The notes under the pieces were generated by a model, which had not been told where the DNA came from, searched no databases, and saw only the letters and a program-made list of their open reading frames with translations. From Terriglobia bacterium (lineage in GTDB: Bacteria > Acidobacteriota > Terriglobia > Terriglobales > Acidobacteriaceae): DNA of 64,000 nucleotides. The position numbers were made by a program, and so were the translations under genes. Location: assembly GCA_020072585.1 (NCBI GenBank), contig JAIQGL010000004.1, positions 248,001-312,000 of the forward strand, given 5' to 3'. Positions 10,081 to 44,302 of the stretch are shown here, one piece after another. The first letter of the stretch is position 1; each line of letters starts with the position of its first letter.

Positions 10081-10257
10081 GATCCATCTCGGAGTCCGAT
10101 AACTAGCGGCTGATCGTGCTTTCTAAAAAAAAATCCAACGCTCCCGCGGACCACGCACGTTGTTGCTCAGGAAACCGATCCATTCCCGCCACGTCGCGGC
10201 AGGATTGTCTTGACAAATGCAGGAGCCAGAAACATGTCGTGAGCTGGTAAATTCCCA

Positions 10258-10396
10258 AGTCCCGCCAGGGGACGACCCGAGAATAGCCCGGTACGTTTCT
10301 GAGGCGCGCTTGCGCGCTGAAGAATAAGTGCCGGGTAAGCTGAAACAATTCCCTCCTCGCTGCCACAGGCCCACGCGCAGCCAAAGCGGAGTGCGC
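10258..10396 (-). repeat. 139-nt structured dispersed repeat, copy A
   Basis: Read on the minus strand, this aligns end to end with 44093-44231 without length change. Shared blocks include TTACCCGGCA, TACCGGGCTA and GTCCC...GGGAC. At offset about 80 it has the hairpin GCGCGC-AA-GCGCGC (10304-10317), where copy B has a different but equally perfect stem. It lies about 200 nt downstream of the last gene of module 1. Confidence 0.75.
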
Positions 10397-10591: not shown

Positions 10592-11017
10592 TCAGGTTGC
10601 GGGTTCAGCGTTCGGATTTCTCGGCTCACTGTGGATGGGCGGCCATTCTTTGATCGTGTCCGTGTCCCATCGTTTTAGCTTGAGAAGCGCGGCGCTAAGG
10701 ACCAAAGCCGGTTCAAACCGAAGTGAGAGCTGGGTGCGGTCGTGGAAGAGGATGGCAATGGTGTTTTCATCGGGTGAGGTATAGAAACGCACTCGTTGTA
10801 CCATCCGGCCTTTCATCTGCGGAAACTCCACAATCCTGCGGCCCGGCAGTCCTCGCTCCTTCAGGTCAAATTCTTTGCCGGGCTCGGGGCGTTTTGGCAG
10901 CTCGGACACGATCTCCACCTTTGGAACTCTCAGGCTTCGTCGTGACCTTTTGCTTTTGTTGCTGGGCCTTGTTTTAGATTTGGTCTTGGGTTTGGTCTTG
11001 CTCTTAGCAGGCTTCAT
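10592..11017 (-). CDS. Basic protein, third gene of duplicated module, copy 1
   Basis: The 141-residue protein has a Lys/Arg/Ser/Thr-rich N-terminal tail (residues 1-30). A conserved domain follows with PGRRIVEFPQMKGRMVQRVRF and a C-terminal IKEWPPIHS motif. The same motifs occur in the third gene of module 2 (EFPGMQGR, IKGWPPIIS), about one third identical over 70 residues by eye. The ATG overlaps the stop of the micro-ORF upstream as ATGA, implying translational coupling. I do not recognise the domain. The basic tail suggests contact with nucleic acid, but that is inference. Confidence 0.7.
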   Translation of the reverse strand: MKPAKSKTKPKTKSKTRPSNKSKRSRRSLRVPKVEIVSELPKRPEPGKEFDLKERGLPGRRIVEFPQMKGRMVQRVRFYTSPDENTIAILFHDRTQLSLRFEPALVLSAALLKLKRWDTDTIKEWPPIHSEPRNPNAEPAT

Positions 11018-11181
11018 AGGCAGCCTGCTTTCTCAGACATGAAAGAGCTTACCGCTGATTTTCGCGGATAACCGCGGATTCTGTTGAGATGGTTCAGGGG
11101 CTGAATGCCGAGTGCTGATGGCTGAGTGCTTGCAACAAGTTGCACCCAAAAGGCGGGACGTGTAGCTTCAATCACAGCCAT
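11014..11181 (-). CDS. 55-residue micro-ORF of duplicated module, copy 1
   Basis: An ATG at 11181 is preceded by GGGAGG four bases upstream. The frame reads MAVIEATRPAFWVQLVASTQ and ends at 11014, its TGA overlapping the ATG of the next gene. The first 20 residues differ from the module 2 micro-ORF only by Val/Ala exchanges at residues 3 and 16. Beyond this, the codons are made of two common intergenic repeat texts (ACTCAGC-type and CGCGGAT-type). It may be a regulatory leader peptide or a small protein in its own right. Confidence 0.65.
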   Translation of the reverse strand: MAVIEATRPAFWVQLVASTQPSALGIQPLNHLNRIRGYPRKSAVSSFMSEKAGCL

Positions 11182-11217
11182 ATTGCCTCCCTTAAGGCGA
11201 TTTGGTTAGGGCGCGTT

Positions 11218-11245
11218 CGGTGTGACTAGCACCGGGCGCTGCCCG
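11218..11245 (-). promoter_or_regulatory. Two-hairpin leader before micro-ORF, copy 1
   Basis: On the minus strand, CGGGC-AGC-GCCCG (11245-11233) is followed by CGGTG-CTAGTCA-CACCG (11234-11218), the two sharing a CG. Module 2 keeps both stems but has a different second loop (TGTAAC). The hairpins start 8 nt past the HTH gene stop and lie about 40 nt before the micro-ORF, so they could protect the downstream mRNA or control its translation. Confidence 0.6.
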
Positions 11246-11253
11246 TTATGGTT

Positions 11254-11526
11254 TTACTTCTTCTTCGTTTTGCGAGGCACGGGCGATTTCGCCTGTGCCT
11301 TTTGTTTCTCCCGGAGCTTTGAGTAACGAGTTTTCCTGCCGTTGGCGATCTTGGGTAGGAGTTCCCGGAGCCTCGCAATTTCAGGCTCGGTCCAGACGTG
11401 GACTTTCCGGCCGCCTACGTCAATAATCTGCGGCGCGGGTACCTTTTTCTCCGCAATATAGCGACTCAGAGTCTTGATCCCAATTCCGAGACGCTTAGCG
11501 ACTTGGCTTGTTGAAAATGTACTCAA
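11254..11526 (-). CDS. Small MerR/excisionase-like HTH protein, module copy 1
   Basis: The 90-residue protein has an N-terminal helix-turn-helix of the MerR/HTH_17 type (STSQVAKRLGIGIKTLSRYI) and a wing (VPAPQIIDVGGRKVHVW). A helix (EPEIARLRELLPKI), the motif NGRKTRYSKLRE and a basic tail follow. The start is a TTG at 11526; no ATG fits the alignment with the module 2 protein. More than half the aligned positions are identical between copies, including all of NGRKTRYSKLRE. It probably regulates its own operon or the divergent R-M genes; it has no effector domain. The operon continues into the hairpin leader and micro-ORF. Confidence 0.8.
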   Translation of the reverse strand: MSTFSTSQVAKRLGIGIKTLSRYIAEKKVPAPQIIDVGGRKVHVWTEPEIARLRELLPKIANGRKTRYSKLREKQKAQAKSPVPRKTKKK

Positions 11527-11534
11527 TCAGACCT

Positions 11535-11563
11535 ATCGTGTCAGATTAATGAATGGCTGTCAA
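11535..11563 (-). promoter_or_regulatory. Promoter of module 1 HTH gene
   Basis: TTGACA (11563-11558) and CACGAT (11540-11535) are separated by 17 bp on the minus strand. The -10 ends eight bases before the TTG start, so the mRNA would be leaderless or nearly so. TCAGA occurs twice on the plus strand (11527-11531 and 11541-11545), flanking the -10, and could be operator half-sites. Confidence 0.5.
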
Positions 11564-11588
11564 GGCTGAATGCGGCAAAAATAACGAA

Positions 11589-11617
11589 TTGCAGTTGCAA
11601 GCAAATGACTCTACAAT
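11589..11617 (+). promoter_or_regulatory. Promoter of R-M operon
   Basis: TTGCAG (11589-11594), 17 bp and TACAAT (11612-11617) lie seven bases before the ATG at 11625. This gives a likely leaderless transcript and argues against the upstream ATG at 11553, which sits inside the divergent HTH promoter. Confidence 0.5.
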
Positions 11618-11624
11618 CCGCAAC

Positions 11625-12497
11625 ATGGGAAAATCACCATCCCCAATCCTTCCACTTCCGTTCCCCGAAGGAAGTGCAGAGAATGCAAACGGCAACTCTC
11701 GAAAACGGAAATTGATTGCTTTTGGCTGGTACGGGGGGAAATTTAGCCACTTAACGTGGCTCTTGCCACTGCTCCCCCAATGCCATCACTATTGTGAGCC
11801 CTTTGCAGGATCAGCAGCGGTGCTGTTAAATAGGCAGCCGTCTGCGGTTGAAACGTACAATGACGTGGATGGGGAAGTCGCAAATTTCTTCCGTGTATTA
11901 CGCGAGGAGTCTGGCGAGTTGATTAAACGCATTGGGCTTACGCCGTTCTCGCGCGAGGAGTTCTCCAGAGCGTGCACGATCTCTGCAAGCATCGACCCTC
12001 TTGAGAGAGCACGGAGATTTTTCGTTCGCGCGAGACAAGTGCGTACAGGGTTGGCACAGACCGCGTCGTTGGGCCGCTGGGCAAATTGCAAAAACACGAG
12101 TCGCGCGGGAATGTCCGGCGTGGTTTCACGTTGGCTCGGCAGCGTCGATGCGCTTCCAGCAATAGCCGAAAGGCTCTTGCGAGTTCAAATCGAAAACCGT
12201 CCGGCGATAGAAGTGATCCACTTATACGACGACAAGCGCACTCTGTTCTATTGCGATCCTCCCTACCCGCACGAGGCACGCGGGGATTCAAAGGCATATG
12301 GCTTCGAGATGACCAATGAAGAGCACAGACGATTAGCGGACGTGCTCAAGACTGCAAAGGGCAAAGCGGCAATTTCAGGTTATCGTTGCCCGTTGATGGA
12401 CAAACTCTACTCCACATGGCGTCGTATTGACGCCCCGGCTAAGAAATGTCATTCCGTTAAACAGACTCGGGCTGAAGCCCTGTGGTTAAATTACTGA
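11625..12497 (+). CDS. D12-class (Dam-like) adenine-N6 DNA methyltransferase
   Basis: From ATG 11625 the protein has 290 residues. It carries the D12-class methylase signatures: an N-terminal FGWYGGK, the SAM-binding motif I EPFAGSA (58-64) and the catalytic DPPY (211-214). It methylates adenine in a specific DNA sequence and is most likely the protective partner of the restriction enzyme gene that begins four bases after its stop. The two genes are more AT-rich than their neighbours and lie beside the small HTH module, which suggests acquisition by transfer. The recognition sequence cannot be read from the gene. An in-frame ATG at 11553 would add 24 residues with no motif. Confidence 0.85.
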   Translation: MGKSPSPILPLPFPEGSAENANGNSRKRKLIAFGWYGGKFSHLTWLLPLLPQCHHYCEPFAGSAAVLLNRQPSAVETYNDVDGEVANFFRVLREESGELIKRIGLTPFSREEFSRACTISASIDPLERARRFFVRARQVRTGLAQTASLGRWANCKNTSRAGMSGVVSRWLGSVDALPAIAERLLRVQIENRPAIEVIHLYDDKRTLFYCDPPYPHEARGDSKAYGFEMTNEEHRRLADVLKTAKGKAAISGYRCPLMDKLYSTWRRIDAPAKKCHSVKQTRAEALWLNY

Positions 12498-43141: not shown

Positions 43142-43453
43142 TCACCTAAGCCGCAGGCCAGAGCTGATGATAGGGGGCCAGCCTTTGATGCTGTGGCCGT
43201 TGCCGTCTCTCCAGTCACGCAGATTGGCTTTGAGAGTAAAGCCCGGATCAATCACCAGATGCAGCGTTATCTTCTCCTGAAAGCGGATGCTGACGGCGTG
43301 GTAGTCGCCCGCAGTAATGAATTCGATCTTCTCCAGCCTGCGGCCCTGCATTCCGGGAAACTCCAGGGACTTTCCTCCGGGATAGGCTTTCTCGATCAGG
43401 GCGAAGCGGGGCTTTTTGGGCGGTTTGCGGCGGGTAGTGGTTGGGGGTTTCAC
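43142..43453 (-). CDS. Basic protein, third gene of duplicated module, copy 2
   Basis: The 103-residue protein starts at GTG 43453, overlapping the micro-ORF stop as GTGA. It has a short Lys/Arg/Thr-rich N-terminal tail (KPPTTTRRKPPKKP). The same motifs as in the module 1 protein follow: PGGKSLEFPGMQGRRLEKIEF and IKGWPPIIS. The open frame extends to 43600 but covers the micro-ORF in another frame. The parallel overlap (ATGA in copy 1, GTGA in copy 2) supports this start. Function unknown; the basic tail may bind nucleic acid. Confidence 0.7.
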   Translation of the reverse strand: MKPPTTTRRKPPKKPRFALIEKAYPGGKSLEFPGMQGRRLEKIEFITAGDYHAVSIRFQEKITLHLVIDPGFTLKANLRDWRDGNGHSIKGWPPIISSGLRLR

Positions 43454-43632
43454 GGGCGCCCTGCTTTCTCGTTGTGAAGGCGGGGCACGGAAAAAACCTT
43501 TGCCGCAGATGTGCGCAGATAAACGCAGATCGGATTTAAGCCGTTCAAGGGTTGAATGAGGAATACTGAGAGCTGGGTGCTTGCGGCAAGTTGCACCCAA
43601 AAGGCGGGACGTGTAGCTTCAATTGCAGCCAT
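43450..43632 (-). CDS. 60-residue micro-ORF of duplicated module, copy 2
   Basis: An ATG at 43632 has TTGGAGG upstream. The frame reads MAAIEATRPAFWVQLAASTQ, then diverges from copy 1 and ends at 43450. Of the first 20 codons only those at positions 3, 16 and 19 differ between copies, and one of these is synonymous. The rest (about residues 20-60) is formed by dispersed intergenic repeat texts in the same reading frame as in copy 1. Confidence 0.65.
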   Translation of the reverse strand: MAAIEATRPAFWVQLAASTQLSVFLIQPLNGLNPICVYLRTSAAKVFSVPRLHNEKAGRP

Positions 43633-43669
43633 GTTGCCTCCAATCAAGGCGATCTGGTTAGGGCGCGTT

Positions 43670-43696
43670 CGGTGGTTACACACCGGGCGCTGCCCG
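43670..43696 (-). promoter_or_regulatory. Two-hairpin leader before micro-ORF, copy 2
   Basis: Minus strand CGGGC-AGC-GCCCG (43696-43684) is followed by CGGTG-TGTAAC-CACCG (43685-43670). Both stems are the same as in copy 1 while the second loop differs in sequence and length. It is followed by the conserved CGCGCCCTAACCA and the GGAGG of the micro-ORF. Confidence 0.6.
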
Positions 43697-43752
43697 TTAA
43701 CAATCAGCCGTTAGCCATTGGCTTTTTAGCCGTTAGCCTCCGGGCTCGTCGG

Positions 43753-44031
43753 TCAGGGGTTACTTCTCTTTGATTTTCGTTTTTGGCGAGGCACGGCTTT
43801 TTTAGGCTGTGCCTCCCGGAGTTTTGAGTAACGGGTTTTCCTGCCATTTTTGGCCTTCGGTAGCGCGTCGCGCAACCGTTCAATGTCGCTCTCGCTCCAC
43901 AAGCGCAGTCGAATTCCTGCAACCATTGTTTCCGGCGGAGCAGGAACTTTTCCCATGAGTATGTAACGGCTCAAAGTAGCATTGCTCATACCCAGCTTCT
44001 TAGCCACTTGCATTGTGGAAAGAGGATTCAT
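43753..44031 (-). CDS. Small MerR/excisionase-like HTH protein, module copy 2
   Basis: The 92-residue protein aligns along its length with the one at 11254: STMQVAKKLGMSNATLSRYI (HTH), VPAPPETMVAGIRLRLW (wing), SDIERLRDALPKAKNGRKTRYSKLRE and a Lys/Arg tail. The start is an ATG at 44031. It is likely a DNA-binding repressor or activator without an effector domain. A near-palindrome over its -10 and start suggests autoregulation. It is followed by the hairpin leader, micro-ORF and basic protein. Confidence 0.8.
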   Translation of the reverse strand: MNPLSTMQVAKKLGMSNATLSRYILMGKVPAPPETMVAGIRLRLWSESDIERLRDALPKAKNGRKTRYSKLREAQPKKAVPRQKRKSKRSNP

Positions 44032-44092: not shown

Positions 44093-44231
44093 GCGCGCTC
44101 CACTTCGTTGCGCGCGGGCCTGCGGCGCAAGGAAGAGACTTTTCTTCTGCTTACCCGGCATTTATTCCTCATCCCGGCCAGCCGGGACTCGGAAACATAC
44201 CGGGCTACTATCGGTCGTCCCTGACGGGACT
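44093..44231 (+). repeat. 139-nt structured dispersed repeat, copy B
   Basis: Aligned to 10258-10396 (minus strand) at equal length. The middle hairpin is CCCGGC-CA-GCCGGG (44173-44186), a different stem from that of copy A at the same offset. Other shared parts are TTACCCGGCA/TACCGGGCTA (able to pair) and GTCCC-TGAC-GGGAC. It lies between the module 2 promoter and the unknown gene at 44303. Confidence 0.75.
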
Positions 44232-44302
44232 GGATTACGATATGTCTTTCAAGGGTCGCCTGACTCGGGGGTGGGTTCGACTCGGCGCCAAAAGGAGCTG
44301 CA

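Follow-up and report, generated by a model that had tools for sequence, protein, structure and literature searches.

We found that a conserved block, present twice in a 64,000-nucleotide stretch of the Terriglobia bacterium contig JAIQGL010000004.1 (hereafter the window), is most probably the gene of an antisense RNA of about 75 nt which covers the next gene's ribosome-binding site and start codon. The RNA would be of the SymR type, acting in cis to silence that gene, and we put the probability of this reading as a whole at roughly 0.84.

A preliminary description of this DNA had noted two nearly identical leader and micro-ORF segments, at 43584-43698 and 11133-11247, and had suggested an RNA function, a leader peptide or gene conversion. 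The strings it quoted are found at both places, on the - strand. The blocks are indeed near-identical, with 89% mean column identity over 155 columns (43560-43710 vs 11110-11262; 88% over 134 bases by BLASTN), while the HTH proteins are just over half identical (56%, 50/89) and the third proteins about one-third identical (35%, 32/91), as it had reported. In the alignment the CGGTG/CACCG stem is retained and the loop differs between the two blocks, also as described. The conservation goes far beyond chance: in the genome of the window (6.9 Mb) the block was found at 40 places by BLASTN, compared with 62 copies by covariance models. Covariation and conservation in other genomes had been set as the test, and we found both, with 17 of 18 pairs covarying and the element present in many other genomes. 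The proposed RNA function was therefore right in kind and wrong in strand, as the RNA gene lies on the opposite strand.

Layout of the two islands

The predicted antisense RNA of one copy lies at 43627..43700 on the + strand. Its 5' end, AGCCAT, is inferred from the spacing to the -10 element and from SymR, and its 3' end is approximate. Upstream, inside the micro-ORF, we observe a -35 element TTGCAC (43591..43596, +) and, 17 nt after it and 7 nt before the RNA, a -10 element TAGCTT (43614..43619, +). Hairpin 1 (43636..43650, +; GCCT..AGGC) contains the complement of the Shine-Dalgarno sequence GGAGGC. It is followed by a terminator-like hairpin 2 of 14 bp (43661..43695, +), the "second hairpin" of the preliminary description, whose G.U pairs are mismatches on the - strand and whose sense version is mismatched in nearly all copies. 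On the - strand, a 60-aa micro-ORF (43450..43632) has its ATGGCT start beneath the antisense RNA. The 103-aa payload A (43142..43453, -) begins with GTG and overlaps the micro-ORF stop by 4 nt. Upstream and in the same direction lies a 92-aa HTH_17/excisionase-like protein (43753..44031, -), which matches Pfam HTH_17 at E 2e-5, below the cut-off, and phrog_66 at E 1.3e-7.

The other island is built in the same way. Its antisense RNA lies at 11176..11249 (+, 3' end approximate), with the promoter TTGCAC, 17 nt, TAGCTT at 11140..11168 (+) and hairpin 2 at 11209..11244 (+). The 55-aa micro-ORF (11014..11181, -) is followed by a 141-aa payload A (10592..11017, -) which starts with ATG in a 4-nt overlap with the micro-ORF stop, and the 90-aa HTH protein has a TTG start (11254..11526, -). 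Head to head with this HTH gene is a gene for a D12-class adenine DNA methyltransferase (11553-12497, Pfam E 3e-21).

Two covariance models were used: R1, made from 38 copies of this genome (own copies), and R2, a later model from 84 sequences. R2 matches 43627-43707 with 77.6 bits (E 8e-18) and 11176-11256 with 81.3 bits (E 8.8e-19), both copies being among its own input sequences. Of the 40 BLASTN places 39 were examined as copies, and L006, whose match covers query 60-139 only, was excluded. L038, in which hairpin 2 has no 5' arm, was excluded from the structure alignments, leaving 38.

Structure and covariation on the antisense strand

A structure on the sense strand was rejected, as RNAalifold on the sense alignment gave 14 pairs with a covariation term of -0.04. 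Because of this poor result the two strands were compared directly. In the 38 own copies, standard pairs fill 530 of 531 cells on the antisense strand and 429 on the sense strand. For alignment A6, with 95 matches of which three places are counted twice, the figures are 1642 and 1401 of 1690. Hairpin 2 has A.C and C.A mismatches on the sense strand, and these are G.U pairs on the other strand.

Covariation was measured in two alignments. In A3, a MAFFT alignment of the 38 copies, 6 of 18 pairs show changes on both sides, though individual copies (L013 and L039, for example) account for most of this in five of them. On each of five measures, the observed value was higher than in all 500 shuffles. 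A3 was made without model fitting, with the structure derived from its first row. In A5 we found changes on both sides in 17 of 18 pairs (176 cells), with 98.9% of cells paired; here again 0 of 500 shuffles are as high on any measure, and slid structures reach at most 45.1% paired. A5 and A6 were aligned to a covariance model (A5 to R1), which favours the model's own pairs.

The antisense strands of five copies fold at -38.8 to -45.2 kcal/mol (z -3.5 to -7.9), compared with z -1.6 to -5.0 for the sense strands of the same five. The 5' AGCCA is also able to pair with the linker UGGUU, in 31 to 38 of the 38 copies depending on the pair.

A predicted promoter within the start of the micro-ORF

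The predicted promoter of the antisense RNA has the form TTGCRY, 17 nt, TANNNT, and is contained in codons 1-15 of the micro-ORF. TANNNT stands at a fixed place in all 39 own copies, with TTGC 17 nt before it in 36 of 39, and at the expected place in 22 of 22 divergent own copies. Since the covariance model begins after TANNNT, this check is independent of the model. TANNNT is placed 6-7 nt ahead of the RNA in 109 of the 120 distinct matches outside the own genome, 7 of them in virus contigs; 1.1 would be expected. The -10 is missing in the other 11, some of which are probably chance matches; this is likely for L090, L091 and L092, which score weakly and have no -10 and are still included in the 120. 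The complement of a start codon is found at RNA positions 4-6 in 112 of the 120, and an ORF of at least 60 aa is opened at that start in 98.

Identity between copies with different payloads follows these elements. When 13 payload A copies were compared with 17 payload B copies (221 pairs), identity was high at codons 1-2 and 7-8, 0.23-0.39 at codons 10-12 and again 0.58-0.84 at codons 13-15, after which it was near random (~0.3). This profile traces the -10, a variable spacer and the -35. By codon position, identity is highest at the third (0.64), then the second (0.59) and the first (0.55), and the invariant bases include the third positions of codons 2 and 6, though the amino acid of codon 6 varies. 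The suggested leader-peptide role found no support: between payload classes the ORF is near random after codon 15, and 26 of 39 copies have it joined to the payload. The micro-ORF start appears to be conserved because it carries the promoter and 5' end of the antisense RNA. The conserved peptide start MAVxExKRSxxxAQP would thus be a shadow of the opposite-strand promoter, and a trap for annotation.

Generic promoter and terminator scans did not detect the antisense promoter or the terminator of the window copies. The promoter is missed because both its hexamers, TTGCAC and TAGCTT, agree with the consensus in just 3 of 6 positions. Both window copies are without a U-tract after hairpin 2; a U-run at the end is present in some copies, for example CCCGTCTTTTTTTGT in a divergent own copy (L117) and CCGTTTTTTATTTT in L204.

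HTH gene, micro-ORF and payloads across the own copies

An HTH_17-like gene lies upstream in 37 of the 39 own copies, and its product ends in LPKIANGRKTRY, with small variations, and a lysine-rich tail. Among the 36 HTH copies compared, LPKIANGRKTRY is nearly invariant after variable HTH domains. The gene is followed by the hairpin region, the Shine-Dalgarno sequence and ATGGCT (TTGGCT in one copy). In 26 of the 39 copies, and in L039, the ORF opened there is fused in frame to payload A, with the core ...DWKTG...KKWPLI..., or to payload B (...LNRGFG...ANRDLL...). A separate micro-ORF is found in both window copies and in L003, L004, L005, L011, L012 and L032, and in all 8 its stop overlaps the payload A start by exactly 4 nt (ATGA or GTGA); for L005 and L011 the overlapping start was read from the sequence by eye, the script having given an earlier in-frame start. 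L018 is a micro-ORF copy too, with the payload start 42 nt downstream. L016, L024, L035, L036 and L038 appear shortened or frame-broken.

The AlphaFold2 model of the payload A core has five beta strands (pLDDT 87), and a search of this fold against the PDB gave no match better than E 0.45. Payload B is predicted to form two long helices, a helical hairpin. Given these predicted folds it is likely that payloads A and B are unrelated, and since the two share the block, the block has probably been exchanged between unrelated genes. No convincing Pfam family was found for the 34 members of payload A, six payload proteins gave nothing in PHROGs at E up to 0.01, and there was no toxin family among the Pfam matches of the payloads. 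It is possible that the candidate payloads are of type I toxin-antitoxin nature.

Copies in other genomes and mobility

Within the genus, R2 finds copies in 7 of 9 genomes (62, 22, 22, 18, 7, 5, 1, 0 and 0). In a sample of the phylum, relatives are present in 37 of 396 genomes, own genome included; copy numbers are undercounted there, because only 11 candidates were scored per genome. A few of the weakest matches in this sample are probably chance, and two entries of the tally (G073 and G165) are based on likely chance matches. One R2 match was found in the genome of Occallatibacter savannae, a culturable acidobacterium. A strict pattern scan of the collection of named genomes gave 12 matches, all acidobacterial judging from title or taxonomy. 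The same kind of scan of virus contigs gave 8 matches, of which 6 look real, L145 weakly so (E 4.7e-4). The remaining two, L147 and L151, are likely chance matches, and the outside count of 120 is without both.

Comparison within the genus shows the island to be accessory at its syntenic site. The window has rplM and a tonB-like gene separated by the HTH-RNA-payload island and a 252-aa ORF. In the genus member G397 no more than about 330 bases separate rplM from the tonB-like gene (40% identical in the matched part), and in G398 the interval contains a different ORF of 292 aa. R2 gave no match on either of these stretches. Shared sequence extends, in the own copies, from about the HTH gene to about the end of the payload, and no sharp common element ends were found among the 45 closest copy pairs. 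A repeat at both ends of the whole window islands was looked for and not found; a weak direct repeat (23 nt, 74%; 43537 and 44241) flanks no more than the RNA and the HTH gene. An HTH gene lies within about 260 nt in 3 of 21 divergent own copies.

The target genes of the relatives are varied. By Pfam they include a serine recombinase (L148), a tyrosine recombinase (L138), Cas1 (L139), HNH_3 (L150 and L204), RadC (L135), the relaxase-like Replic_Relax (L203) and ArdC (L078), and the targets of L077, L143 and L091 have no Pfam match. By eye, further serine recombinases follow L073, L074, L094, L152, L215, L223, L226 and L229, and the targets of L142 and L166 are Cas1-like from similar sequence. 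A search of the plasmid database with a serine-recombinase leader gave six records, none of which matched more than 19% of the query; the best had E 2. Many other targets are small orphan proteins, and none of the small target proteins scanned has a convincing family. A Cas1-like protein of about 500-520 aa, with its start codon under the same RNA family, is seen in L139, L142 and L166 (2482-4050); in these three TANNNT is missing at the usual place, and the Pfam support is for L139 only.

Relation to SymR, the R1162 RNA and other antisense RNAs

R2 was built solely from these genomes, and outside the phylum it was run on 100 kb of E. coli K-12 and one IncQ plasmid. In E. coli we found symR at its exact annotated start (E 3e-8, the sole match in 7 kb), the next match in the 100 kb having E 4. 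On the IncQ1 plasmid R2 found the R1162-type RNA over the repA start codon, behind urfF (E 1.9e-12). Judged from these matches, SymR, the R1162 RNA and the acidobacterial RNAs probably belong to one superfamily.

The reverse search points the same way. The Rfam SymR model (RF01809) matches the antisense strand of L072 over its full length (1-77, 48.0 bits, E 5e-6), the best score among 20 loci, none of which reached the gathering score of 61. At E up to 0.5, SymR matches the same strand as the antisense RNA in 10 of the 20 and gives no match in the other 10. The window copy gave no match to the SymR model at E up to 5, and at the gathering threshold no Rfam family matched the window. The R1162 RNA model (RF00043) scored at best 39.1 bits among the 20 loci (L125, gathering 55 not reached), on the complementary strand.

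SymR, a type I antitoxin acting on E. coli symE, and the RNA described here share their length, two hairpins, an AGYCAU 5' end and UUAGSG between the hairpins. In both, the target ORF contains the promoter, whose -10 (TAGAAT in E. coli, inside symE) precedes the RNA by 7 nt, and the Shine-Dalgarno sequence and start codon are covered. In the published work, the SymR promoter is placed within the symE ORF, silent changes in its -10 abolish SymR, and SymR represses symE translation, in trans as well (PMC1891008). The systems differ in that the targets scanned here are not SymE, which has an AbrB fold, with no SymE Pfam match among them, and in that here the HTH gene precedes 37 of 39 own copies and a genome may hold up to 62 of them.

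The R1162 RNA acts in plasmid copy control. It shares with the present RNA the order of small regulator gene, antisense RNA and target, and the position over the target start codon. In contrast, its Rfam model reads the complementary strand, its upstream protein F (68 aa) has no HTH_17 pattern by eye, and its target is the plasmid replication helicase RepA, whereas here the payloads are chromosomal and payload A is without a convincing Pfam family. PtaRNA1 (RF01811), which Rfam describes as 'plasmid transferred anti-sense RNA', matches L169 weakly (29.1 bits, E 0.02), far under its gathering score of 47.

In mok/hok/Sok, too, an antisense RNA covers the ribosome-binding site of a leader ORF coupled to the payload; mok and hok are translationally coupled, and the 4-nt overlap of leader ORF and payload start in our 8 separate copies is comparable. 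However, the RNA is unlike ours, SokC was not found by R2 in the E. coli K-12 stretch containing it, and the payload here is a soluble-looking beta protein by prediction. RNA-OUT of IS10 is an antisense RNA which limits a recombinase from its start codon, and by analogy the acidobacterial RNA would work likewise on recombinases, although no Rfam match to RNA-OUT is among the matches listed.

Type I antitoxin-like RNAs are usually regarded as narrow, host-specific pairs. In a 2025 abstract (PMC12390103) type I antitoxins are listed for Proteobacteria, Firmicutes and Tenericutes only, with Cyanobacteria as an addition. In the literature collection searched, no paper mentions more than one of SymR, R1162, ptaRNA1 and their Rfam numbers, and the titles and abstract openings of the papers listed for antisense RNA with Acidobacteria or serine recombinases, and for related topics, show nothing on the present RNA. 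The present RNAs would carry one RNA design through another phylum, over recombinases, Cas1, HNH nucleases, ArdC and plasmid functions. They would also link three separate Rfam families, the third (PtaRNA1) weakly, and help in the search for mobile genes under silencing and for new payload proteins.

Proposed mechanism and alternative explanations

We propose that the promoter in the 5' end of the micro-ORF drives synthesis of an RNA of about 75 nt, antisense to the HTH-payload operon. This RNA would start opposite the start codon (AGCCAU), mask the Shine-Dalgarno sequence and end at the hairpin rich in G.U pairs, which forms a good fold on the antisense strand only. Its pairing with the mRNA would block ribosome entry at ATGGCT, and silencing of this kind is suggested by analogy with SymR. 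A payload fused in frame would be repressed directly; in the window copies the micro-ORF would be blocked, and the payload start may be coupled to it through the 4-nt overlap. The HTH protein may have a regulatory role.

The same RNA could instead act mainly on transcription, by interference or by termination in the 3' region of the HTH gene, and not on ribosome entry. Its 3' end points at the HTH gene and carries a terminator-like hairpin; however, the most constant feature is the position over the start codon and Shine-Dalgarno sequence (112 of the 120 outside matches), and SymR works on translation and also in trans (PMC1891008), so we consider this version unlikely. A leader RNA on the sense strand (an attenuator, riboswitch or thermosensor) controlling the downstream ORF would fit a block that lies between HTH gene and payload and includes the Shine-Dalgarno sequence. 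Hairpin 1 is possible on both strands, and the sense strand of the five folded copies also beats its shuffles. Yet the antisense strand of those copies folds better, sequence changes in hairpin 2 preserve pairing on the antisense strand but disrupt it on the sense strand, and fixed promoter elements within the ORF would be unexplained, which makes a sense leader quite improbable.

We regard as very improbable an element acting at the DNA level, such as a folded single-strand site for recombination or transposition of the attC or REP kind. DNA tolerates G.T pairs as well, the block is common to unrelated genes, and many targets are recombinases or nucleases. Such a site would leave unexplained the position of TANNNT, the anti-Shine-Dalgarno hairpin, the start codon and the matches to symR, an annotated transcript, and to the R1162 antisense RNA, and no whole island was seen to be bounded by repeats on both sides. 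In attC sites RYYYAAC and GTTRRRY boxes are paired at the foot of the hairpin; here both flanks read TAAC on the same strand, and because these are direct and not inverted they cannot pair, so an attC-like site was rejected. Least credible is that the block has no function of its own and reflects gene conversion homogenising recent paralogues. In favour of this, the module is similar throughout in some copy pairs, and the block is common to A and B payloads. Homogenisation, however, yields no compensatory changes, and A5 shows them; the element is also kept in diverged genomes and viruses with different flanking genes. The earlier suggestion of gene conversion does not by itself account for covariation and phylum-wide presence, while the data do support an exchange of the block among unrelated genes.

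Beyond the antisense silencing that we favour, we see an even chance that SymR, the R1162 copy-control RNA and the acidobacterial RNAs represent one ancient superfamily of portable start-codon silencers, in which the block moves as a unit onto unrelated genes and the loops keep copies apart. If so, the block would consist of the terminator hairpin, the Shine-Dalgarno sequence, ATGGCT and a promoter within about 15 codons; the targets would be above all recombinases, nucleases and plasmid genes, with dozens of distinct self-silenced modules per genome; and loop changes and inversions would separate the copies, as in plasmid incompatibility RNAs.

Variation in the hairpin 2 loop

The loop of hairpin 2 is highly variable, with 32 distinct loops in 38 copies. 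Among the 703 loop pairs 7 are identical, compared with a shuffled mean of 0.15, and 3 are exact reverse complements, compared with a shuffled mean of 0.11 and a maximum of 2 (500 letter shuffles). In 144 readable loops of 176 rows we found TT..AG 33 times and CT..AA 15 times, and the mixed forms TT..AA and CT..AG were not seen. Two classes without mixed forms, together with the loop-pair counts, suggest inversion of the loop within the hairpin and selection for distinct loops. The two loop classes (43675-43680 and matching loops in L001-L040) are reverse complements of each other.

Repeats were also seen by eye near the islands. A GC-rich repeat (CCGGGCTA...CCCTGACGGGACT-like) is present near both, at 44108-44270 and 10240-10330. 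The stretch from HTH gene to RNA at 43699-43752 is, as in many copies, made up of AT-rich degenerate repeats (TTAGCCATTAGCTTTTGGC-like, about 10 bases each), and such repeats also occupy parts of the micro-ORFs at 11014-11181 and 43450-43632.
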